DNA from: a virus
Virus record (IMG/VR): IMGVR_UViG_3300020463_000039
Span: 1-43,020 of that record
DNA: 43,020 nt
Reading direction: 5' to 3' (one strand)
Shown: in pieces, positions 3,706 to 37,526 of the stretch
Position numbering within the stretch: position 1 is the stretch's first letter
Layout of the letters: every line of letters begins with the position of its first letter
Notes under the pieces: generated by a model
What the model was told of the DNA's origin: nothing
The model's database searches: none
Seen by the model: the letters and a program-made list of their open reading frames with translations, nothing else
Made by a program: the position numbers and the translations under genes

Positions 3706-4162
3706 GTATTTGGTAGATCCTACCTAATGTCTCCATTCTTTCTATCAAACGATTAGCACGATTAGTTACTTGTTTATGCCAACGACTATCTTCCATTTGA
3801 ATTGCTGCTTCAAACCAATCTTCTTCAGCAATCGCTTTATTCATATTCTTAAATTTAGAAAGACGAGGTCTGCCCATGTTAAACATCATGTTGCATAATA
3901 TGTAACGTGCTTCTTCTGGTATTTGATCAAAGTTATCATATAGTTTTTTACATTCCTCAATAGTAACTTGAATATCACTATCGAAACAGCTATTAACTCT
4001 ATCTTCGGAAACAGTAGTACCAACCTCTTTTCCATATTCGTCATCCCACTCTGTTACAAGATGTCCAATTCCAAAAGTAGGTAGTCCAAGGTGATCTAAA
4101 TATACCTCATATTTACACCCCTCGTCTTTTTCTATTTCTACTCTTAACTTATCGATATTCAC
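3698..4162 (-). CDS. Endolysin, T4-lysozyme type (glycoside hydrolase family 24)
   Basis: 154 residues. The catalytic triad spacing of T4 lysozyme (E11, D20, T26) is reproduced as E14, D23, T29 in EG...YLDHLG..TFGIGHL. The rest also fits: FNMGRPRLSKFKNM for the conserved FN-G-...-F region, and the C-terminal NRANRLIERM. The length (154) is close to T4 lysozyme (164). There is no signal peptide, so it should need a holin. It starts at GTG 4162, whose G is the last base of the preceding TAG, with a GGAGG ribosome-binding site. Last gene of the leftward operon. Role: peptidoglycan cleavage at lysis. Confidence 0.93.
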   Translation of the reverse strand: MNIDKLRVEIEKDEGCKYEVYLDHLGLPTFGIGHLVTEWDDEYGKEVGTTVSEDRVNSCFDSDIQVTIEECKKLYDNFDQIPEEARYILCNMMFNMGRPRLSKFKNMNKAIAEEDWFEAAIQMEDSRWHKQVTNRANRLIERMETLGRIYQIPT

Positions 4163-4374
4163 TAAACTGCCTCCAATGGTTTTATACTTAATTCATATCC
4201 CATCTTATTTAATACTTTATCGAAGTTTTCAAGAGTTGGTTGTCTTTGTCTTGCTTCCCAAGTATAAACTGTAATGACACTAACACCTGTATCTTCCGAG
4301 ACTTGCTTTTGAGTCAAGTCGTTTTCTTTTCTCAAGTCTTTAAATGTTTTAATTAAATCAGCCATTTTTTCCAA
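4162..4374 (-). CDS. Small XRE-family helix-turn-helix protein
   Basis: 70 residues. A classic HTH_3 fold is visible: LRKENDLTQKQVSEDTGVS, then VITVYTWEARQRQPTLEN, with the LTQ..VSEDTGVS..TV.TWE signature. The start is TTG 4374 behind a strong AGGAG, or ATG 4365 three codons later. It overlaps the helicase stop by 22 nt and the endolysin start by 1 nt. It probably regulates transcription by binding a nearby operator, perhaps the control region 5805-6108. It could instead be a solitary antitoxin-like protein. Being sandwiched between a helicase and an endolysin is unusual. Confidence 0.8.
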   Translation of the reverse strand: MEKMADLIKTFKDLRKENDLTQKQVSEDTGVSVITVYTWEARQRQPTLENFDKVLNKMGYELSIKPLEAV

Positions 4375-5804
4375 TCTTCTCCTAGAACTTGTGTAGCTAT
4401 ATTTATCTTTTGTCTTAATGCTTTTACTATAACTTCATCAACTGTTTTCTCTGCAACAAGATCAATATAAGTAACTTTTTGCTCCTGACCGATCCTGTGT
4501 GCACGGTCTTCTGATTGCAACCTTACCTCAAGATCATAACTATTACTATAATAAATTACTGTATTGGCAGCAGTTAGGGTAAGACCGTAGCCCCCAGTTC
4601 TTGGCTGACCAATAAAAAATCTAAGATCGTCGTTGTTTTGAAAAGACTCGACAATCTTTTGTCTTTCTTCTCCTGGAGTATCGCCAAAATATGAAGCTGT
4701 TGATTTATCGCCATATTCTTTTTTAAGAGCAGATTGGATAGCTAATATATCGTGTCTATAGTTAGCCCATATAATTGCTTTTCCATTTACTTCCTCTAAG
4801 ATACCAAGAAGTTCAGTTAGCCTATTGTTTTTTAGTTCAACACTAGAGCCACTATCTGTATTTAAGAAGCCACAACTTATTTGGTGAAGTCGTAATAGCT
4901 GAGTTATAACAGCGTTTGCAGTAACTTGTTCCATATCATCTAATATAGTAACTGCATTCTTTTTCATTTCGTCATATACTTTTTTCTGTTCAGGGGTTAG
5001 TTCTATAGATCGCCTTGTATATACTTTTTCTGGTAAATCTAAACACTGCTCTTTCGTAACTCTAAACGAATTAGGTTTAATAAGATCAGTGAGTTCATCT
5101 AAGTTTCTAAACCCAAGTATCTGATTATATTGATGTGTACCTGCAGACCTACGAATCATATCTGCAAAACGAGAACAAAAAGAGTAATATGATTTAAAAC
5201 CTAGTATTGATTCTCCAAGGAAAGCAAACTGGGAATATAAGTCTAAAGGTGATTTAGTTATTGGTGAACCTGTAAGTATTCTTTTATACTTTGCTTGTTT
5301 TGCTAAGTCTATTGCATTTTTGGTTCTTTTTGCTTTAGGGTTTTTTATTACTGTCGATTCATCTATAGCTAGTAACGATCCGAGACCAAGCCCATTCTTA
5401 TGCCTAAACAAAAACTTCTTTGCTACTTCTAAAGCCTTACCGCCTGATAACGCTTCAATATTCATTACAAATATATGTAGATCCCATTCTGGCTCCCAAA
5501 TACTTTTTATCTGATTCTTTATCTTCTGTGTTAAGGGGGAAGCCCAATAAGCAATTTTATATTCTATATGATCAGGTAGGTGGTTTGGTATCTCTTGTCC
5601 AACCCAGTTTTTGTAAACACCTTTCGGTGCAAGAATCAAAGCTGAGTTTATCTCGCCCTTATCGTAAAGATGTGCTATGGTGTCTATTAATACTTTTGAC
5701 TTTCCTGTTCCCATATCCATTAACAATGCGTATTCTTGTTTTTCGCAGGAAACAGTTAAAGCATCTAATTGATGCTTATACGGTTTAGTTTTAAACTTAA
5801 ACAA
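4353..5804 (-). CDS. SNF2-family DNA helicase/translocase
   Basis: 483 residues, a full two-RecA-domain SF2 enzyme of the compact phage SNF2 type. Walker A is at residues 30-36 (DMGTGKS), motif II DES at 148-150 (AIDESTVIKNP), and motif III LTGSP at 177-181. The C-terminal domain has GYGLTLTAANTVIYY and the arginine finger RAHRIGQ. The start is TTG 5804 with AAGGAG 6 nt upstream on the minus strand. It is first in the leftward operon, upstream of the HTH protein and endolysin. Likely roles are remodelling DNA-protein complexes in replication, recombination or transcription. Being in a lysis operon suggests late use, which is inference. Confidence 0.92.
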   Translation of the reverse strand: MFKFKTKPYKHQLDALTVSCEKQEYALLMDMGTGKSKVLIDTIAHLYDKGEINSALILAPKGVYKNWVGQEIPNHLPDHIEYKIAYWASPLTQKIKNQIKSIWEPEWDLHIFVMNIEALSGGKALEVAKKFLFRHKNGLGLGSLLAIDESTVIKNPKAKRTKNAIDLAKQAKYKRILTGSPITKSPLDLYSQFAFLGESILGFKSYYSFCSRFADMIRRSAGTHQYNQILGFRNLDELTDLIKPNSFRVTKEQCLDLPEKVYTRRSIELTPEQKKVYDEMKKNAVTILDDMEQVTANAVITQLLRLHQISCGFLNTDSGSSVELKNNRLTELLGILEEVNGKAIIWANYRHDILAIQSALKKEYGDKSTASYFGDTPGEERQKIVESFQNNDDLRFFIGQPRTGGYGLTLTAANTVIYYSNSYDLEVRLQSEDRAHRIGQEQKVTYIDLVAEKTVDEVIVKALRQKINIATQVLGEDWKKWLI

Positions 5805-6108
5805 ATTTCTCTCCTTCTTCTTTCTAAAATTACTATACTATAATAATATCTAGTGAGATATATATACTTTATGAAAAAAGTTGCTTACGACCCTTTATCT
5901 ATCATATTGTAAAAACAAATCTCATAGAGTACTTATTCAGTAAAAACAAAGACTTAGATATGCTCTTATGATATTATGAGATTATGACGAGCTTTTTAAA
6001 AAATAAAAAAGCAAAAACTTTTTAAAATTACATTAGGCTACCAGTAAATACCTATTTATATTTATATAATAATATAGTAAGTTAAATTAAATAAATGGAG
6101 AAAGTAGA
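5805..6108. promoter_or_regulatory. Divergent intergenic control region between leftward and rightward operons
   Basis: 304 bp without a credible gene. The part at 5838-5988 is one copy of a module repeated in opposite orientation at 24691-24844 (separate entries). Rightward, a TATAAT at 6065-6070 is a candidate -10 box for the gene at 6109, which has GGAG before its ATG. A 7-bp inverted repeat GCTTTTT/AAAAAGC at 5991-6012 separates the two halves and could be a weak bidirectional terminator or a protein site. Confidence 0.7.
5838..5988 (-). promoter_or_regulatory. Control module copy A, upstream of the SNF2-HTH-endolysin operon
   Basis: Read on the minus strand it contains, in order: GTCATAATCTCATAATAT (5988-5971), ATTTGTTTTTACAATAT directly followed by GATAGATAAAGGGTCG (5920-5888), TTTTTCAT, and CTCACTAGATATTATTATAG (5857-5838). 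All four blocks recur in the same order on the plus strand at 24691-24844. This copy has a second TTTGTTTTTAC about 30 bp upstream of the first. It ends 33 bp before the TTG start of the helicase. Probably a phage-specific promoter or activator-binding region. Confidence 0.7.
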
Positions 6109-6453
6109 ATGGAACAAAACACTACAGTGTATGTAGTCCAAGACTTCGGCACTAAAAATATATCAGGTGCTACGAGGTTTGGCAGAATAAGAACACTACT
6201 ACCTCCTAATAGACAAATCGTATTTAGTTCTGCTCCAACTGTTGCACGGTTGCGAGAAGGCTTAAATGAGTTCTCCGATGACGACTACTTGTTGCTCATG
6301 GGAGATCCTGCTGCTATTGGTATAGCATGCAGTATAGCTTCCCATGTAAATGATGGGAAGTTTAAAATGCTAAAGTGGGATAGACAAGAAGCACTATATC
6401 TACCCATAAATATTAACCTAAAATACTTTGGAGAGTATGATGGAAAATCTTGA
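6109..6453 (+). CDS. Hypothetical protein, first gene of the rightward block
   Basis: 114 residues, not assigned to a named family. It shows alternating beta/alpha pattern (TVYVVQDFG, IRTLLPPNRQIVFSS, DDDYLLLMGDPAAIGIACS), compatible with a small Rossmann-like or nucleotide-related fold, but there is no catalytic signature. GGAG stands 8 nt before the ATG. Its end overlaps the next gene by 14-17 bp. It is immediately upstream of the SSB-like and primase genes, so a replication or early role is likely by context only. Confidence 0.7.
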   Translation: MEQNTTVYVVQDFGTKNISGATRFGRIRTLLPPNRQIVFSSAPTVARLREGLNEFSDDDYLLLMGDPAAIGIACSIASHVNDGKFKMLKWDRQEALYLPININLKYFGEYDGKS

Positions 6454-11748: not shown

Positions 11749-12588
11749 ATGGCATCTATACGAAAACGACTTGCAGTAAATGCAAACAATTCTAAAAACA
11801 CAAGAATGGATATAGCTAGTGCAGGCACACTAGCAAACTGGCGACCAGACGAACTAGCCCACATTAGTAGGTTTTGTAAAATGGGTCAGCTTATCATGGA
11901 TAAATCTAAAACGCTTGGTAGACCAGTCGATATATTAGAAATAGGTTGTGGTGAAGTTTGGACACTTCGTTATTTGTATAAAGCGTTTGTTTCAAGAAAA
12001 GCAGAAATAGTAAACAGCTATGTAGGTATGGATATTGACCCAGCTTGTTTAAATGACTGGTGGGTAGATGATGATTTACCTTTAACCGAGCATAAATGGT
12101 TTCAAACTATGTCAGGTGGTAAAGGTCAAATTATACTTCAAGACTTAACAACTAACCCTGAGCCTCCAGTAGAAGATGAGTCTATAGATGTTTTTATGAC
12201 AACAGAAGTTATTGAACATATGGGTAGAGAGTTCATTGAGCCATGGATCGAAGCATCGGCTAGAAAACTTCGTTCAGGTGGTATCGCTTATATATCAACG
12301 CCTAATCATGATGGATCGAATGATAAACTTCCAGAAGACCATGTGTATGAATGGGGGTATGAAGAACTAAAAGAACTTTTAGAAAAACATTTTATATTAG
12401 AACGTCATTATGGTACGTTTACTCAAACTCATAACTTTAATAAAAACCACCGTGCTAATGTGCGATGGTCGCAAAATGTTATAGACGATATAAAGAATAG
12501 GTTTGATAAACATTGGCAAAGAGTTATTTTAGCTACAGCTTATCCTGAGACAGCAAATAATGTTAATTGGCATCTAAGGAAAAAGTAA
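11749..12588 (+). CDS. Class I SAM-dependent methyltransferase
   Basis: 279 residues. SAM-binding motif I ILEIGCGEV is at 63-71, the acidic ribose-binding residue is in YVGMDIDPAC (91-100), the motif IV region is VFMTTEVIEHM (148-158), and the post-motif is KLRSGGIAYISTPNHDG. There is no DPPY/NPPY or PC motif of DNA adenine or cytosine methylases, so the substrate is not shown by sequence. AAAGGAGG precedes the ATG. It shares a TAATG junction with the pyrophosphorylase-like gene, which suggests it acts in the same DNA-base modification pathway (inference). Confidence 0.85.
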   Translation: MASIRKRLAVNANNSKNTRMDIASAGTLANWRPDELAHISRFCKMGQLIMDKSKTLGRPVDILEIGCGEVWTLRYLYKAFVSRKAEIVNSYVGMDIDPACLNDWWVDDDLPLTEHKWFQTMSGGKGQIILQDLTTNPEPPVEDESIDVFMTTEVIEHMGREFIEPWIEASARKLRSGGIAYISTPNHDGSNDKLPEDHVYEWGYEELKELLEKHFILERHYGTFTQTHNFNKNHRANVRWSQNVIDDIKNRFDKHWQRVILATAYPETANNVNWHLRKK

Positions 12589-13415
12589 TGGAGCCAACAA
12601 GACGATTCTTTCGATGGATTGAGGATAGACATGAAATCTACTTAAAAAAAGAAGCAGGTCTTCCTCGCCCATGGACAACGGATGTTATATTAGATACATA
12701 TCGATTTACCAATCCGTTTCGTGAAAACGATAAAACAACTGTGTGGTTTCGTGAAAACATGAGAGACCCACTCAAGCATACAAAAGATGTATTACTAGCT
12801 ACGGTGATTTTTCGTTGGTTTAATTTAATTGAGACTGGAGAAACTTTATTAAGACATAATCTCCATAGGTTTTGGAACGCAGAACTAGCAAGAGAAAAGA
12901 TAAAAGAACAAAAGAAGTTTGTTACTGGAGGATATATAATAAAAACTCCAGACGGTATGGATAAAGTTGATGGTGTTATTTGGTGTATAAATAATATTGT
13001 AAAAAACCATAACAGAATTTTAAATGATTTTGCTCAAATAAACACACTACAAAAAGCCCACTTACTATTTCAAGAGTACCCATACTTAGGTCATTTTATG
13101 TCTTACGAATTAGTTTGTGATCTTCGTTATACCCTTTTCTTAGATAAAGCCCTTGATATACATCGTTGGGCTAATGCTGGTCCAGGAGCGATGAGAGGAT
13201 TAAATCGTATTCATGGTCGTAGTTTAAATTATACAAGTAAGAAACATGATTGGAATGCTGAAATGGTTGAGTTAAAATCAGTTCGTAACCAATACTTACC
13301 TTATTCTATAGCCCATAGATTAGAGATGCGAGAAATAGAACATAGCTTATGTGAGTTTGATAAGTATGAACGAGTTCGTAAGGGAGAAGGAAAGCCAAGG
13401 GGATTATATAGATGA
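12588..13415 (+). CDS. Alpha-glutamyl/putrescinyl-thymine pyrophosphorylase-like protein (HMUDK helical domain)
   Basis: 275 residues from ATG 12588 (TAATG with the methyltransferase stop, GGA upstream). The start TRRFFRWIEDRHEIYLKK with LPRPWTTD.IL.TYRFTNPFREND, and the later AGPGAMRGLNR at 197-207, match my memory of the aGPT-pyrophosphorylase/5-hmdU DNA kinase helical family. That is a DNA-glycosylase-like helical fold that acts on 5-hydroxymethyl-uracil in phage DNA. The P-loop kinase domain fused to it in some members is absent here. It overlaps the thymidylate synthase homologue by 4 bp (ATGA). Predicted role: activation or replacement step in making hypermodified thymidine. Confidence 0.78.
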   Translation: MEPTRRFFRWIEDRHEIYLKKEAGLPRPWTTDVILDTYRFTNPFRENDKTTVWFRENMRDPLKHTKDVLLATVIFRWFNLIETGETLLRHNLHRFWNAELAREKIKEQKKFVTGGYIIKTPDGMDKVDGVIWCINNIVKNHNRILNDFAQINTLQKAHLLFQEYPYLGHFMSYELVCDLRYTLFLDKALDIHRWANAGPGAMRGLNRIHGRSLNYTSKKHDWNAEMVELKSVRNQYLPYSIAHRLEMREIEHSLCEFDKYERVRKGEGKPRGLYR

Positions 13416-14440
13416 TTACATTTGAAGGAAAAAATGTAGAAGAAGTATTTCAAATAGCTTTAATGAGTTTAAGAGATGAGAAGTCTACAATAAAACTAGA
13501 GTCAAGGGTAGGTGATGTTCTTATGTTTCCTGATCCTGTTTGTTCAACATATCGTTACCCAAGAGAACGAATATTGTTTATGCCAGAAAGAAACTGTAAT
13601 CCATTTTTTCATTTTATAGAAGGACTATGGATGATTGCTGGTCGTGAAGATGTAAAGGCTATCTCTTGGTTCGTTAAAAGAATGGAAGAATTTTCTGACG
13701 ACGGTATAACTTTAAATGGGGCTTATGGCAACCGATGGGTACGGTCATTCGGTTTCGATCAGTTAGCAATAATAATACAAAAGCTAAAGTATAATCCTTT
13801 TGATAGACGAATAGTTCTTTCTATGTGGAATCCTATGGATTTAAATTATTCAGGAAAAGATGTACCTTGTAATACACATATCTATTTTAAATGCCGTCCA
13901 GGAAAAGAGTTAAACATAGTTGATATGACCGTTATGTGTCGGTCTAATGATATGGTTTGGGGTGCTTATGGGGCTAACGCTGTTCATTTTAGTATGTTAC
14001 ATGAGTATGTTGCAAGTATGGCTAACTTAGAGGTAGGAAAGTATCATCAAATAAGTAATAATGCTCATGTTTATGTAGACTTATGGGATGATCTAAAGCA
14101 TAAACTACACGAGGGTATTATAGAAAATGAGTATACAACTGACTCTAATGTTAAGTGGCACCCTTTAGTACAAGATACAGAGCATTTCCAAGAGGATCTA
14201 AAATATTTTTTTAATCTACTCTGTGATAATCCTTCTGGGGGGTTAGTCGGTGGTCAAGATATTACTGCTGACTTATTTAGTAATAGCGATACGTTTGCTT
14301 ATACAGCAATACCTATGGTTCAAGCGTGGTCGTTATATAAACAAAAAGATATAAAAAATGCAATCGCACAAGCGTCAACTATCCAAGCACCAGATTGGAA
14401 GAAAGCCTGTGTACAATGGCTAGAAAGGAAAGTAAAATGA
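13412..14440 (+). CDS. Thymidylate synthase family protein, probably dUMP hydroxymethylase
   Basis: 342 residues. The catalytic cysteine is C153 in DVPCNTHIYF, the phosphate/nucleotide-binding RSND is at 177-180, and the following WGAYGANAVHFSML replaces the LGLPFN of classical ThyA. The spacing to N189 is one residue longer than in E. coli ThyA, so the base-discriminating Asn cannot be assigned by eye. The N-terminal YRYPRERILFMPER..NPFFHFIEGLWM is family-typical. Sitting directly after the pyrophosphorylase-like gene, it more likely makes 5-hydroxymethyl-dUMP than dTMP, although plain dTMP synthesis is the conservative alternative. Confidence 0.85.
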   Translation: MITFEGKNVEEVFQIALMSLRDEKSTIKLESRVGDVLMFPDPVCSTYRYPRERILFMPERNCNPFFHFIEGLWMIAGREDVKAISWFVKRMEEFSDDGITLNGAYGNRWVRSFGFDQLAIIIQKLKYNPFDRRIVLSMWNPMDLNYSGKDVPCNTHIYFKCRPGKELNIVDMTVMCRSNDMVWGAYGANAVHFSMLHEYVASMANLEVGKYHQISNNAHVYVDLWDDLKHKLHEGIIENEYTTDSNVKWHPLVQDTEHFQEDLKYFFNLLCDNPSGGLVGGQDITADLFSNSDTFAYTAIPMVQAWSLYKQKDIKNAIAQASTIQAPDWKKACVQWLERKVK

Positions 14441-14748
14441 CAAAACAAAAAGAACTTAGCCCTATTATAAAACGAACACAAATTATATGTGCAGAGGACT
14501 GGACATCACTTGATAAAGCTGAAGAAGACTATGGTAATAGCTGGAAAAAGCGTGGAGGTATAGGGGCTTTTATGATGTTAGCTAGGAAGTGGGATCGTAT
14601 AGAAAACCAAGTAAACGACTATACTTACGATATCTTTTTAGCTTTAGACGAGGATAAGAGACCAGAGGGGCTTATAGACGATATAAGAGACCTTAGACGC
14701 TATCTACTACTAGTCGAAGCAGAAATGGCTTTACAAAAGAATGAGTAA
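14437..14748 (+). CDS. DUF1599-like protein (nucleotide modification associated domain)
   Basis: 103 residues from ATG 14437 (ATGA overlap, GAAAGGAAAG upstream). The pattern YGNSWKKRGGIGAFMMLARKWDRIE and DDIRDLRRYLLLVEAEM resembles DUF1599, which I recall being named nucleotide modification associated domain 1 because of its neighbours in base-modification operons. Its place at the end of this cluster agrees. The biochemical function of the family is not established. An all-alpha nucleotide-binding fold related to MazG-like proteins is a possibility. Confidence 0.65.
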   Translation: MTKQKELSPIIKRTQIICAEDWTSLDKAEEDYGNSWKKRGGIGAFMMLARKWDRIENQVNDYTYDIFLALDEDKRPEGLIDDIRDLRRYLLLVEAEMALQKNE

Positions 14749-21560: not shown

Positions 21561-21605
21561 AAACAGTAATTTGTAATTTTATTGCCCCTTTTTGTACCTT
21601 ATACT
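21559..21605 (+). promoter_or_regulatory. Early-type promoter with AAAAA-41-TATACT spacing
   Basis: AAAAACAG begins at 21559, in the stop codon of the previous gene, and TATACT at 21600, 41 nt on. TTTGTA is at 21570-21575. The leader ends AGAAAGGTACACT-ATG. The AAAAACAGTA(A/T)TTTGTA core is nearly identical to the copy at 23789. Confidence 0.7.
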
Positions 21606-21636
21606 TTAGTAAAGTTAAATTAAAGAAAGGTACACT

Positions 21637-22558: not shown

Positions 22559-22606
22559 ATAAGGCAATACTTTGTACTAGTAATGATAATTATTGCCTTA
22601 TATACT
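22559..22606 (+). promoter_or_regulatory. Dyad-flanked promoter of the DUF932 gene
   Basis: A perfect 11-bp inverted repeat, ATAAGGCAATA (22559-22569) and TATTGCCTTAT (22591-22601), encloses TTGTAC (22572-22577). The next bases complete TATACT (22601-22606). TTGTAC to TATACT is 23 nt, as in the promoters at 21559 and 23789. The stem could act as terminator of the upstream unit, as an operator, or both. Confidence 0.55.
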
Positions 22607-22649
22607 ATATCTAACTTAAATATTAACTTACAGACAGAAAGGAAGAATT

Positions 22650-23788: not shown

Positions 23789-23835
23789 AAAAACAGTATT
23801 TTGTAGTATAAATCGCTTTTTTGCCCTTATATACT
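23789..23835 (+). promoter_or_regulatory. Early-type promoter with AAAAA-41-TATACT spacing
   Basis: AAAAACAG begins at 23789, TTTGTA at 23800, TATACT at 23830, again 41 nt from the A-run to the -10 box. The leader reads TTTTAGAAAGGTAGAAAGAA-ATG. Confidence 0.7.
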
Positions 23836-23869
23836 ATACTTACGTTAAATTTTAGAAAGGTAGAAAGAA

Positions 23870-24608: not shown

Positions 24609-24619
24609 CTATCTATATA

Positions 24620-24649
24620 TTGGGGCGAAATGCCCCAATGTTCTTTTTA
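24620..24649 (+). terminator. Rho-independent terminator closing the early region
   Basis: TTGGGGC (24620-24626), loop GAAAT, GCCCCAA (24632-24638), then TGTTCTTTTT. It separates the early block from the packaging and head operon. Confidence 0.8.
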
Positions 24650-24690
24650 AACACTTTGCTTGTCTGAATGTAGTAAAGTACCGTCATAAT

Positions 24691-24844
24691 GTCATAATCT
24701 CATAATATCTTCTGTAATGCTCTGTAGACCTTGAATCAAGGTTATGATATTTGTTTTTACAATATCATATATATAATGATAGATAAAGGGTCGGGAGAAT
24801 CATTTTTCATTTTTGTAAATAAAACTCACTGTATATTGTTATTG
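24691..24844 (+). promoter_or_regulatory. Control module copy B, upstream of the packaging/head operon
   Basis: Contains GTCATAATCTCATAATAT (24691-24708, 18 of 18 identical to copy A), ATTTGTTTTTACAATAT (24749-24765), then a 12-nt insertion relative to copy A, then GATAGATAAAGGGTCG (24778-24793), TTTTTCAT at the same phase, and CTCACTGTATATTGTTATTG (24825-24844). A perfect hairpin ACCTTG-AAT-CAAGGT (24728-24742) is unique to this copy. The small terminase gene starts 55 nt downstream. Probably drives late expression. Confidence 0.7.
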
Positions 24845-24899
24845 CGTAGGGTTAGATTTGGTGTTATGCTTCATGTGAAAGTAAGAAAAGGAGAATTGT

Positions 24900-25478
24900 A
24901 TGAAAGATCTTGAGTATACTCCACTTTTGCCTAGTGAGTGTGGCAATTACTGGATTGCTCCCGATGGTAAGAGACATCGTCCACTACTTCCAAAGCACAA
25001 AAAGTTCAGTAGACTGTATGTTGAAGGAATGTCTGCTGCCGCAGCAGCACGAAAGTCAGGCTTTACGAAAAGCATGATTGGCTCAAAAGTTCAAGGTTCT
25101 GCAATGTTGAGGACAAATCCACTTGTAGCAAACTTCATTATAGAACTTTTGGATAAGCAGAGAGAGCGAGCAGATGTTTCGGTTGACTCGCATCTAACAG
25201 AATTATCCCATTTGCGTGACGAAGCCAAGGATACAGGGCAAATTGCTGCAGCCATCTCAGCCGAGGTGAATCGTGGCAAGGTCGCAGGGCTTTATATTGA
25301 TCGCAAAGAGGTCATGGTCTCAAAGGTTGAAACAATGAGTTCCGAAGACCTGATATCCAGGATACAACAATTAGTTGACGGTAGCAACATGAAAGTAGTG
25401 AACCATGTACCAGACAGAGAAGACATTATATCAAGCAATGAAGAAAAACTTACCGAGGGTTCATTGGCAAAGAGTTGA
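24900..25478 (+). CDS. terS: Terminase small subunit
   Basis: 192 residues with AAAGGAG before the ATG. The N-terminal helix-turn-helix region (RLYVEGMSAAAAARKSGFTKSM) would bind the packaging site. The central HLTELSHLRDEAKDTGQIAAA with AGLYIDRKEV is the oligomerisation pattern of the Terminase_2-like family. It recognises phage DNA and loads it onto the large subunit at 28619. First gene of the late operon behind control module B. Its 3' end overlaps the nuclease gene by 74 bp. Between the two terminase genes lie four other genes, which is unusual. Confidence 0.82.
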   Translation: MKDLEYTPLLPSECGNYWIAPDGKRHRPLLPKHKKFSRLYVEGMSAAAAARKSGFTKSMIGSKVQGSAMLRTNPLVANFIIELLDKQRERADVSVDSHLTELSHLRDEAKDTGQIAAAISAEVNRGKVAGLYIDRKEVMVSKVETMSSEDLISRIQQLVDGSNMKVVNHVPDREDIISSNEEKLTEGSLAKS

Positions 25479-25812
25479 GACTGGAGCATTATCAACTGGT
25501 GTTCCTGACGTCAATGGCTGTTGGCAAGGGTCAGAGTTTTGGATTGAACTCAAGATAGGAGTCATTCAATCAGCCAAGCTATCCCCCCAGCAATGTGCAT
25601 GGCACATGAGACGTGCTTCATCAGGGGGAGTTAGTTGGATATTTGCAAGCGACCCATCATCACGCAAACTTTGGATGGTGTCAGGCAATCAATCAGTCAA
25701 CCTCAGAAACAAGAGCCTGGATTCATCATTATCTGTTCATCACTATAGTCAACCGTATGATTGGAAAGCGATATTGGAACAGTTTTGCTTGACTGACCGA
25801 CTGACTGTCTGA
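25405..25812 (+). CDS. VRR-NUC-type (PD-(D/E)XK) nuclease
   Basis: 135 residues from ATG 25405, or 123 from ATG 25441; neither has a good ribosome-binding site. A PD-(D/E)XK active site is visible: E25 in QRVETG, D35 in GVPDVNG, E48 and K50 in FWIELK, then the helix SPQQCAWHMRR. Phage VRR-NUC enzymes are structure-specific nucleases or Holliday-junction resolvases. Beside the small terminase it may resolve branches before packaging. It overlaps the terminase gene by 74 bp, so the start is uncertain. The last codons are built from TGAC-type tetranucleotide repeats. Confidence 0.78.
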   Translation: MYQTEKTLYQAMKKNLPRVHWQRVETGALSTGVPDVNGCWQGSEFWIELKIGVIQSAKLSPQQCAWHMRRASSGGVSWIFASDPSSRKLWMVSGNQSVNLRNKSLDSSLSVHHYSQPYDWKAILEQFCLTDRLTV

Positions 25813-25950: not shown

Positions 25951-26301
25951 ATGGCAAAAGCTCAAAAGAAGGTCAACACTTCTAAAAAAGTTGAAAAAGT
26001 AGAAGCTCCAAAGTTAGAGGTTGTATCACCAGTTGGAAACTCTGGTATACCTCGTCCAGCCAAGTCAGGCTTCGATACTCGCAAAGTAACATTGATAACC
26101 AAGACTATTGAAAATCGTAAGATTGCTGGTCAGGCTATGATTATCCTGAATACGCTCGAAGTTCTTGGTGGCTCTGCTACTCAAAAAGATGTAGTTGATA
26201 ACCTTATCGCTAATGGTCTTGCGACTGTCCAAACTCCAAAGCGTATCTATGATTTCTATCGTAAGATGCTCGTCGAGGCTGAGTATATCAAGCTTGACTA
26301 A
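25951..26301 (+). CDS. Small protein with winged-helix-like C-terminus, paralogue 1
   Basis: 116 residues. The N-terminal 50 residues are Lys- and Pro-rich and probably disordered. Residues 65-116 (LNTLEVLGGSATQKDVVDNL, KRIYDFYRKMLVEAEYIKL) look like a small winged-helix DNA-binding domain. It is paralogous to the gene at 26654: GIPRPAKSG/GIPAPSKGS, LNTLEVLGGSATQKD/LLALDNLGGTATKAD and RIYDFYRKML/RIWSFYRQRL align, and the 5' leaders match. It has its own promoter and terminator inside the packaging region, so it may be a regulator or DNA-binding protein. Specific function unknown. Confidence 0.7.
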   Translation: MAKAQKKVNTSKKVEKVEAPKLEVVSPVGNSGIPRPAKSGFDTRKVTLITKTIENRKIAGQAMIILNTLEVLGGSATQKDVVDNLIANGLATVQTPKRIYDFYRKMLVEAEYIKLD

Positions 26302-26337: not shown

Positions 26338-26351
26338 GCTCTTACGCTTGC

Positions 26352-26366
26352 TTGACTGACTGACTG
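26352..26366. repeat. TGAC tandem repeat, second copy
   Basis: Three TGAC units (TTGACTGACTGACTG) just after the terminator of paralogue 1. Confidence 0.5.
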
Positions 26367-26467
26367 CCTTCATCATAGCATTTCATCATAGCCCTGTTCA
26401 TCATCATCATAATCTTGGCTCACATACATAGAGTATGTATGTATGACTGTATGACTGGTATGGATTG

Positions 26468-26483
26468 TCTGACTGACTGACTC
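26468..26483. repeat. TGAC tandem repeat, third copy
   Basis: Three TGAC units (TCTGACTGACTGACTC) about 25 bp before the left cassette repeat. Confidence 0.5.
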
Positions 26484-26653: not shown

Positions 26654-27034
26654 ATGACAAAAACTAACTCAAAGGTTACCGTACCTACTAATAACGGTAA
26701 AGCTGATACCCCTACTACTAACCCTAATACGGTTAACCGTATGGGTATACCTGCCCCTAGTAAGGGTAGTTCAGCTAATATAAAAGTTAGCCTAGCCCCT
26801 AACGTATTAGATGTATTAACTAGTAACCCTTTACCGCCCCAAGCCCATTGCCTTTTACTAGCCCTAGATAATCTAGGCGGTACGGCTACTAAGGCGGATA
26901 TACTAAAAGAGTTAGATAATACCCCTTTTAGTAGTACTCAATCTAAAGACCGTATATGGTCGTTCTACCGTCAAAGGTTAATGGGTGAGGGTAAAGCCTA
27001 TCAAGGGGCTAACCCCTACCTAGTTAAGGCTTAA
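26654..27034 (+). CDS. Small protein with winged-helix-like C-terminus, paralogue 2
   Basis: 126 residues. Thr/Asn/Pro-rich N-terminus, then RMGIPAPSKGS and a C-terminal LLALDNLGGTATKADILKEL...KDRIWSFYRQRLM that aligns with paralogue 1 (25951). Codon use is quite different from the rest of the window: CTA for Leu, CCC/CCT for Pro, AGT for Ser, and CTAG throughout. AGAAAGGTCAATAAA precedes the ATG, matching the leader of paralogue 1. It appears to be a related gene that arrived from a genome with other base habits rather than a simple local duplication. Function unknown. Confidence 0.68.
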   Translation: MTKTNSKVTVPTNNGKADTPTTNPNTVNRMGIPAPSKGSSANIKVSLAPNVLDVLTSNPLPPQAHCLLLALDNLGGTATKADILKELDNTPFSSTQSKDRIWSFYRQRLMGEGKAYQGANPYLVKA

Positions 27035-35888: not shown

Positions 35889-36794
35889 ATGGCGATTTCA
35901 CGTGCACAACTAGCTAAAGAGCTAGAACCAGGATTGAACGCATTGTTCGGTATGGAATATGGTAGGTACGAAAACGAGCATTCAGAAATTTTTGATACAG
36001 AATCTTCAGATAGAGCATTTGAAGAAGAGGTCATGCTTTCTGGGTTCGGTGCTGCACCAACAAAATCTGAAGGTGGTACGGTCAATTTTGATACTGCAAA
36101 CGAAGCATTTACTGCTCGTTTCACTCATGAGACCATAGCTTTAGCTTTCTCTATTACAGAAGAAGCTATTGAAGATAACCTTTATGACAGACTTGGTTCA
36201 AGGTACACTCGTGCTTTAGCAAGATCTATGGCTCATACAAAACAAGTCAAAGCAGCAGCAATTCTTAATAACGCTTTCACAGGTGGTGCATCCGCAGGTG
36301 GAGACGGAAAAGCATTGTGTGCAGCAGACCACCCACTAACAAGTGGTGGTACGTTGGACAACGTTGCTGCAGCAGATTTGAATGAAACATCTTTAGAAGA
36401 TGCGTTAATTTCAATATCTAGCTTTACTGACGAAAGAGGGCTAAAAATTGCGTTAAGAGGAATGAAGTTAATTATTCCTTCAGGCTTGCAATTTATTGCT
36501 GACAGATTATTACAATCTGCTCTACGTCCAGGAACTGCTGATAATGATGTAAACGCAGTTAAGAACATGGGAATGTTACCACAAGGTTACGTTGTAAACC
36601 ATTTCTTAACAGATACAGATGCGTTCTTTATCAAAACTGACGCTCCAAATGGTTTTAAACATTTTGAGCGTGCACCAATTAAAACTCAGATGGAAGGTGA
36701 TTTCGATACTGGAAATATGAGATTTAAGGCAAGAGAAAGATACTCTTTTGGTTTTTCAGACCCAAGATGTGTCTTTGGAAGTCCAGGAGCATAA
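35889..36794 (+). CDS. Major capsid protein (HK97-like fold expected)
   Basis: 301 residues. Characteristic capsid features: E-loop-like TARFTHETIALAFSITEEAIE, the helix-rich RYTRALARSMAHTKQVKAAAIL, CAADHPLTSGGTLDN, LIIPSGLQFIADRLLQS, and the final HFERAPIKTQ...RFKARERYSFGFSDPR typical of phage major head proteins. GGGAG precedes the ATG. A strong terminator right after the stop gives an abundant discrete transcript. It builds the icosahedral shell with the GroES and scaffold products upstream. Confidence 0.88.
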   Translation: MAISRAQLAKELEPGLNALFGMEYGRYENEHSEIFDTESSDRAFEEEVMLSGFGAAPTKSEGGTVNFDTANEAFTARFTHETIALAFSITEEAIEDNLYDRLGSRYTRALARSMAHTKQVKAAAILNNAFTGGASAGGDGKALCAADHPLTSGGTLDNVAAADLNETSLEDALISISSFTDERGLKIALRGMKLIIPSGLQFIADRLLQSALRPGTADNDVNAVKNMGMLPQGYVVNHFLTDTDAFFIKTDAPNGFKHFERAPIKTQMEGDFDTGNMRFKARERYSFGFSDPRCVFGSPGA

Positions 36795-36832: not shown

Positions 36833-36856
36833 ATTATATATTAATTTTAACCCTAA

Positions 36857-36875
36857 CAATCACACCCCGTGATTG
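36857..36875 (+). promoter_or_regulatory. Hairpin in the leader of the gene at 36900
   Basis: CAATCAC (36857-36863), loop ACCCC, GTGATTG (36869-36875), a perfect 7-bp stem without a T-run, 24 nt before the ATG and just upstream of AGGAG. May stabilise the mRNA or bind protein. Confidence 0.4.
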
Positions 36876-36899
36876 ACTAAGCCAAGATAGGAGATTAAA

Positions 36900-37526
36900 A
36901 TGGCTAATACAACTTTTAAAGGAACATTACGTTCTGAAGGTGGTTACTCATCTATTGCTACTGCAGCAACAACTGGAGTAGAAACAACTCAAATGTCGAT
37001 AACTTCTGCTGGATTTGCTTCTTTAGATGCAAACACTTTAGCAACAGAAGCAGGAACTGGTATTACAACAGGTTCTGGAACTATTTATAGAAGTGCTGTT
37101 CAAAGAATAGGCGGCATAATAACAACAAGAATATTAATAGACTTAACAGGATTAAGATCTACAGCTGGTGGCGACATTATTGGTGTAAATGGAACATCAC
37201 TAGTTTGTCATATTGGTCAAATAACTGCAGCACGAAACGGTACAATCTTAACAGGAAGTATGGAGTGTTTTGAAGCACCTTCAGGTGGTGATCCTGACAT
37301 TAACATACATTCTGCTACAGAAGGAACTGGTATAGAAGATGGTGCTATTAGTGGCTTATCTGAAACATTACTTGTTAATGCAGGTGACGCAACATTAGGA
37401 AGTAAAGTATATTTTACTGCTGTTCCTGCTGCGGATGAATTTTTATATTTAACTTGTGGCACAACTACAGATGCTGATTTTACAGCAGGTAAACTATTTA
37501 TCGAATTAATGGGTTACGAAGCATAA
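36900..37526 (+). CDS. Putative structural protein
   Basis: 208 residues, Thr/Ala/Gly-rich beta-type sequence without charged clusters (STATGVETTQMSITS-like start, IIGVNGTSLVCHIGQITAA, LGSKVYFTAVPAADEFLYL). It lies between the capsid terminator and another terminator, so probably on a separate abundant transcript. A head decoration or fibre-like protein is likely. No family identified. Confidence 0.7.
   Translation: MANTTFKGTLRSEGGYSSIATAATTGVETTQMSITSAGFASLDANTLATEAGTGITTGSGTIYRSAVQRIGGIITTRILIDLTGLRSTAGGDIIGVNGTSLVCHIGQITAARNGTILTGSMECFEAPSGGDPDINIHSATEGTGIEDGAISGLSETLLVNAGDATLGSKVYFTAVPAADEFLYLTCGTTTDADFTAGKLFIELMGYEA

Follow-up and report, generated by a model that had tools for sequence, protein, structure and literature searches.

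In lambdoid phages, the operators OL and OR, of three tandem sites each, flank a control region in opposite orientation, and their sequences covary from one phage type to another because a single repressor binds the two. Phage SPP1 has two replication origins, oriL and oriR, which lie ∼13 kb apart, are similar in make-up, with direct repeats and an AT-rich region, and are both bound by gp38 (PMC6316719). The SPP1 pac site contains direct repeats over the promoter of the gene for the terminase small subunit, TerS (PMC4737164). Here we analyze the virus record IMGVR_UViG_3300020463_000039 (43,020 bp, G+C 37%; this whole stretch is called the window), which carries two oppositely oriented copies of an element of ∼150 bp, copy A next to the early operon and copy B upstream of the TerS gene, terS.

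Copies A and B resemble OL and OR as two opposed DNA elements that each contain several sites, three of them in tandem, and that change in sequence together. They differ in build, as 8-nt direct iterons, an inverted block, and a core are spread over ∼150 bp, and in setting, as they lie 15–19 kb apart at early and late units of phages in which no lysogeny genes were seen. With oriL and oriR they share the plan of two similar, distant elements with direct repeats and AT-rich DNA and, presumably, one bound protein, but they are oppositely oriented, intergenic, and promoter-tied, and no gp38-like initiator was found here. In the pac sites of SPP1 and SF6, direct repeats likewise overlap the region of the promoter of a TerS gene of Terminase_2 type, a position that fits copy B only, whereas the module-bearing phages have a second, inverted copy far off at the early operon. 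The HTVC023P-type pelagiphages HTVC023P, HTVC027P, and 023Pt_psg01 and phage DSL-LC04 have a similar gene core but lack the module and the HTH_3, hydroxymethyl-dU kinase-like, and thymidylate synthase-like genes.

Two Opposed Copies of One Element Bracket the Early Region

A sequence-only reading of the window had described a 150-bp module duplicated in opposite orientation, with four ordered blocks in common. Pairwise alignment bears this out. The reverse complement of 5838–5988 aligns with 24690–24844 at a local score of 88, far above 500 dinucleotide shuffles (mean 21.5, S.D. 2.9, maximum 35), and the four blocks are found in their places. No third place with a near-equal score emerged when the whole window was aligned, and copy B as a query on the window returned copy A (E = 7.6e-15). 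The similarity is wider than 150 bp, covering ∼24649–24844 in B and ∼6022–5838 in A. The longest block of that reading, 18 identical nt (19 nt when re-aligned), came about because iterons were paired with a shift of one repeat. The block belongs to three tandem 8-nt iterons TCATAATN; with the register corrected, copy B begins ∼7 nt earlier than had been proposed.

Among the relatives, the paired element is specific to one clade. An IMG/VR scan with the iteron pattern returned at least 118 stretches; in the loci extracted from these, at least 60 matches also have a core, and a handful more are recognizable diverged modules. Ten long records span both regions (G001, 60.3 kb; G002, 59.1 kb; G003, 51.4 kb; G004, 53.8 kb; G005, 31.9 kb; G006, 42.8 kb; G009, 18.6 kb; G022, 49.3 kb; G024, 53.7 kb; G028, 56.1 kb). 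Each contains a single forward and a single reverse copy; the two bracket the early region and point outward from it. A control pattern had zero matches in these records. In a profile search of the window, G001, G004, G022, and G028, A and B alone were recovered (E ≤ 2.2e-28); there was no third copy in these sequences, the next match (E = 0.067) being a reverse-strand self-match.

The terminase large subunit (TerL) and helicase of the window share 45–64% protein identity with HTVC027P, HTVC023P, 023Pt_psg01, and DSL-LC04. The module-bearing phages are an ocean phage family with kinship to phages of Pelagibacter. Helicase, early genes, DNA polymerase, TerL, portal, and head genes are common to module-bearing and module-less relatives; the module-bearing sub-group has in addition an HTH_3 protein, 5-hydroxymethyl-dU (5-hmdU) DNA kinase-like and thymidylate synthase-like proteins, and a TerS type of its own. 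The module itself was not detected by pattern in the four module-less genomes, where a profile search returned nothing significant, and a DNA search with copy B had no match in 50,697 phage records. Across 257 billion bases from bacterial and archaeal genomes, the iteron is found at 71 scattered places, none titled Pelagibacter. The module pair is therefore a feature of one sub-group. In the parts of the module-less genomes that were checked, there are other direct repeats in the TerS-TerL regions and no bracketing pair.

The 71 bacterial contigs and several unrelated phages (the L267/L299/L303 group, with iterons near TerL, the L311 group, and L278) were rejected as module carriers, as core and geometry are missing as far as seen; they look like background. 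The unrelated virus contigs L267, L299, L303, L309, and L318, as well as L311, L317, and L325, also carry this 8-nt iteron three times, with inverted TTATGAC or ATGAGAC repeats after it and no core. In L267 the iterons lie upstream of a TerL gene.

Architecture of the Element

Alignment of the relatives defines three parts in each copy: the iterons, which are invariant in the module alignments of both A and B, a TATGA block, and a core, TAANNNG[T/C]CG (Table 1). The iteron start lies 61 bp from the first TATGA in 34 of 34 distinct A copies and 59 bp from it in 40 of 40 distinct B copies among the matches listed, although these sequences are kin by descent, many of them close relatives, and do not count as independent. 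In the same set, the distance from TATGA to core is 29–31 bp in A (25 bp in three copies) and 31–33, 40–42, or 52–53 bp in B, i.e. it varies by steps of about one helical turn. The 12-nt insertion that separates a 17- and a 16-nt block in copy B of the window is a single case of this general pattern. In the sub-clades with GNC cores (GCC, GAC, and similar) and TGG cores, the likeness of A and B extends to GTAAA and AACCTGT-like stretches ahead of the iterons. The far flank of copy A is taken up in other sub-clades by C-terminal codons of a YfbR-like gene.

As the two copies stand at the heads of divergent operons, they could be transcribed RNA elements acting in cis, like the lambda nut or HK022 put antitermination sites. 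RNAalifold found essentially no shared structure on either strand of 18 A and 15 B sequences; consensus fold energies were ∼0 and not below those of column shuffles, except for a 6-bp stem (−0.21) on the A reverse strand. An Rfam scan gave no match at copy A or copy B. Spacing of the core in helical turns argues that the element works as DNA rather than as RNA, and with these negative results it makes RNA elements extremely improbable.

Table 1. Positions of the parts of copies A and B and of adjoining features in the window
Feature	Position	Strand	Remarks
SNF2-type helicase gene	4353–5804	−	Downstream of A in the sub-clade of the window
Copy A, far flank, TTTTTTCAT .. CTCACTAGATATTATTATAG	5838–5883	−	B-like in the window
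Copy A, core, TAAAGGGTCG	5888–5897	−	Sequence, comparison of copies
Copy A, first TATGA of inverted-iteron block	5922–5926	−	Second TATGA at 5906–5902, 20 bp on
Copy A, iterons, TCATAATC-TCATAATA-TCATAAGA	5964–5987	−	Direct sequence, alignments
Gap from A iterons to first early gene (ATG 6109)	5988–6108	+	Contains presumed early promoter
First early gene, Pam3 gp32-like	6109–6453	+	Neighbor of A in most relatives
Intrinsic terminator just upstream of B	24617–24641	+	Scan; GC stem kept in most relatives
Copy B, iterons, TCATAATG-TCATAATC-TCATAATA	24684–24707	+	Sequence, alignments
Copy B, TATGATATTTGTTTTTACAATATCAT, TATGA block, second half inverted	24743–24768	+	Sequence, alignment
Copy B, core, TAAAGGGTCG	24784–24793	+	Sequence, comparison of copies
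Sigma70-like TerS promoter, TTGCGT-N17-TATGCT, spacer element GGTTAGA	24842–24870	+	Alignment reading; not listed by a simple scan
terS, terminase small subunit gene	24900–25478	+	Downstream of copy B

The Cores of A and B Changed in Parallel

Within one genome, the variable core bases of A and B tend to agree. They are (A/B) AGG/AGG in the window, G001, G002, and G006, GCC/GCC in G004, G022, G024, and G028, TGG/AGG in G003, AGG/TGG in G009, and ACC/GCC in G005. In total, 30 of 33 variable bases agree, compared with 15.7 expected on re-pairing (permutation p = 0.0025, with kinship ignored), and in effect the core type changed once or twice in each copy. When both copies are placed in one tree, all the B sequences group together with support of 97/99, so that the core change occurred separately in A and in B; the A/B split is older than the sub-clade split, with the cores changing in parallel thereafter. 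The simplest cause of such parallel change is a shared trans-acting DNA-binding factor, and both copies are very probably binding sites of one and the same factor. A third core type, AAATGGTCG, is present in L291 (copy A) and in L265, L319, and L322 (copy B), which are separate contigs.

One candidate is TerS. Copy B would then be a pac-like site beside the TerS gene, and copy A another such site in the reverse orientation. In the module-bearing clade, TerS scores above the Pfam Terminase_2 cut-off and is of a type without a close match in the module-less relatives. The residues by which TerS differs between the GGG-core and the GNC-core clades are concentrated where the predicted recognition helix begins (58–62, 69), a weak clustering (5 of 23 residues in 17 of 192 positions, p = 0.037) that was chosen post hoc and is confounded with phylogeny. 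A structure model of TerS matched no fold significantly. Phages normally have just one pac site, and a second, inverted pac has no known role. Large contigs are continuous through A and B and end in a variable tail-gene region, which speaks against cos-type ends and against A and B as genome termini, not against headful packaging from a pac site. On balance, we consider recognition of A and B by TerS unlikely.

A further gene, 14395–14748, which has a weak “replication protein” match, was discarded as the source of the factor because its relatives are far more widespread (358 stretches). For 25951–26301, winged-helix-like folds were returned at low significance only. This gene and 26654–27034 (+) encode paralogous small proteins downstream of terS that are kept only in module-bearing genomes and may contain a winged-helix domain (model pLDDT 78); no fold matched significantly.

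Copy A Adjoins the Early Operon and Not Always the Helicase Gene

According to the sequence-only reading, one late promoter or activator site would serve both a helicase-HTH-endolysin operon, from copy A, and the packaging operon, from copy B, with each copy pointing at the first gene of its operon. In the window, both copies do face a start codon at a comparable distance (78–107 bp from core to ATG), and copy B precedes a promoter. Copy A, however, constantly adjoins the early operon in the relatives examined, and the helicase gene is its neighbor in some genomes only. Where the first early gene is present, the A iterons are ∼70–124 bp away from it; in G022, G024, and L323 this gene is absent and early gene 2 comes next instead.

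In at least 13 loci, an opposite-strand gene of the YfbR-like HD family separates copy A from the helicase gene (L247, L248, L260, L271, L276, L287, L307, L312, L323, L346, L357, L394, and L397, some of which are near-identical contigs). Its 3′ end overlaps the core of A, and iterons, TATGA block, and core are still intact; in G004 the stop codon lies within the second TATGA and the core inside the last codons. In these loci a promoter-like sequence of the helicase gene itself (TTTACN-N17-TATAAN or a near variant) lies beside the start codon and hundreds of bp from A, and a TTTACN-N17-TATAA-type sequence is also found between A and the helicase gene in G022 and G024. Helicases of the module-less relatives (54–55% identical) have plain sigma70-like promoters. 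The lysozyme gene is oppositely oriented in many relatives, so that the three-gene operon is not conserved. Given the intervening gene, the promoter-like sequence of the helicase gene, and the inverted lysozyme gene, copy A appears to be a stand-alone element rather than the promoter of a helicase-HTH-endolysin operon. The orientation toward a first gene and the late promoter hold up for copy B and fail for copy A, and a common late promoter for both operons is very unlikely.

The YfbR-like gene, of the 5′-deoxynucleotidase family (L247:4652–5245 (+)), has been gained or lost between the helicase gene and A in many relatives.

The position of A outside the logic of transcription units in genomes with the HD gene favors another explanation, in which A and B are paired replication origins like SPP1 oriL and oriR, with a phage initiator on the iterons and unwinding of the AT-rich neighborhood. 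The rigid internal geometry of both copies, their direct iterons in AT-rich intergenic DNA, and the distance between them point the same way. An initiator gene was not found among the clade-specific genes, though, and the replication genes are common to module-less relatives, which do without such an element. GC skew gives no sign of an origin and follows transcription.

Copy B Precedes a Putative TerS Promoter

In all relatives examined, copy B precedes terS, and it lies just upstream of a putative sigma70-like promoter whose spacer element reads GGTAAGA in the relatives. The distance from the core to this element is 65–68 bp in 29 of 40 B copies among the matches listed; a group of loci (L182–L186) has no clear −10 at this spot. 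Promoters in the module-bearing clade were read from sequence conservation. The tie of B to the TerS promoter at a near-fixed distance disfavors replication origins, and we regard paired origins as doubtful.

The terS-terL gaps of the window contain TTGCTTGACTGACTGACTG repeats (25785–25806, 26348–26369, and 26461–26482 (+)), and those of HTVC027P, HTVC023P, and 023Pt_psg01 are filled by other repeats.

A Possible Early-to-Late Switch

We tentatively propose that A and B constitute a dual operator or enhancer for one clade-specific phage regulator acting at an early and a late control point, a reading that may well prove wrong and that we nevertheless rank first, before paired origins and TerS/pac in this order. 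The position of A at the early operon and of B at the terminase/late promoter argues for a regulator, as does the dependence on host polymerase of the module-less relative HTVC027P, which has no RNA polymerase gene (PMC12753301). The fixed geometry with its turn-wise core steps, the single opposed pair in each spanning record and its absence from the module-less relatives, the parallel core change, the place of B between a terminator and the TerS promoter, and the lack of a consensus RNA fold count in its favor as well. A single factor would have two sites of nucleoprotein assembly, A before the early operon and B before the terminase/late operon, where direct iterons, inverted TATGA block, and helically matched core would allow it to build a defined complex. 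Most likely it would act as an early-to-late transcription switch. At A it would modulate, and probably shut down, early transcription; at B it may activate the weak sigma70-type TerS promoter, which would be read by host RNA polymerase, or silence it until needed. What we infer in this switch is that a factor binds, in which direction it regulates, and that it acts on transcription.

Several observations weigh against such a regulator. A and B face their promoters by opposite ends, the iteron end being directed toward the early promoter and the core end toward the TerS promoter. The GNC sub-clade speaks for a regulator, in that its presumed early promoter has TTTAAA exactly 23 bp and a TATA-type hexamer exactly 44 bp from the A iterons, but this distance is fixed only inside that sub-clade and not across sub-clades. 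The labels early and late derive from gene content only. The HTH_3 protein (4162–4374) is unlikely to bind the core, as its recognition helix VSVITVYTWEARQRQ is identical in GGG- and GAC-core genomes and differs within GGG.

It is conceivable, if quite unlikely, that one protein, possibly TerS, acts on the two mirror-image 150-bp sites and joins early shut-off, late onset, and the choice of a replication or packaging site in a single switch. With two strictly built, coevolving copies per genome, one protein should recognize both, and the core classes GGG, GNC, and TGG make specificity-swap tests possible. Knowing whether the element is a switch, a paired origin, or a packaging site would reveal how the infection cycle is ordered in a phage that has no RNA polymerase of its own.

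Other Features of the Window

An Rfam Mu-gpT-DE RNA (RF03012) matches 36851–36902 (+) with 54.1 bits, above the gathering score, directly downstream of a conserved head gene (35889–36794). Methyltransferase-like, 5-hmdU DNA kinase helical-domain, and thymidylate synthase-like proteins are clustered at 11749–14440 (+), which suggests hypermodified thymines; the cluster was not found in the module-less relatives checked. A 61-nt family with TTTGTAnTA .. TTGCC .. TTATATACTATA occupies three intergenic gaps (21564–21624, 22565–22625, and 23794–23854 (+)), each before a gene, and looks like a second class of promoters.
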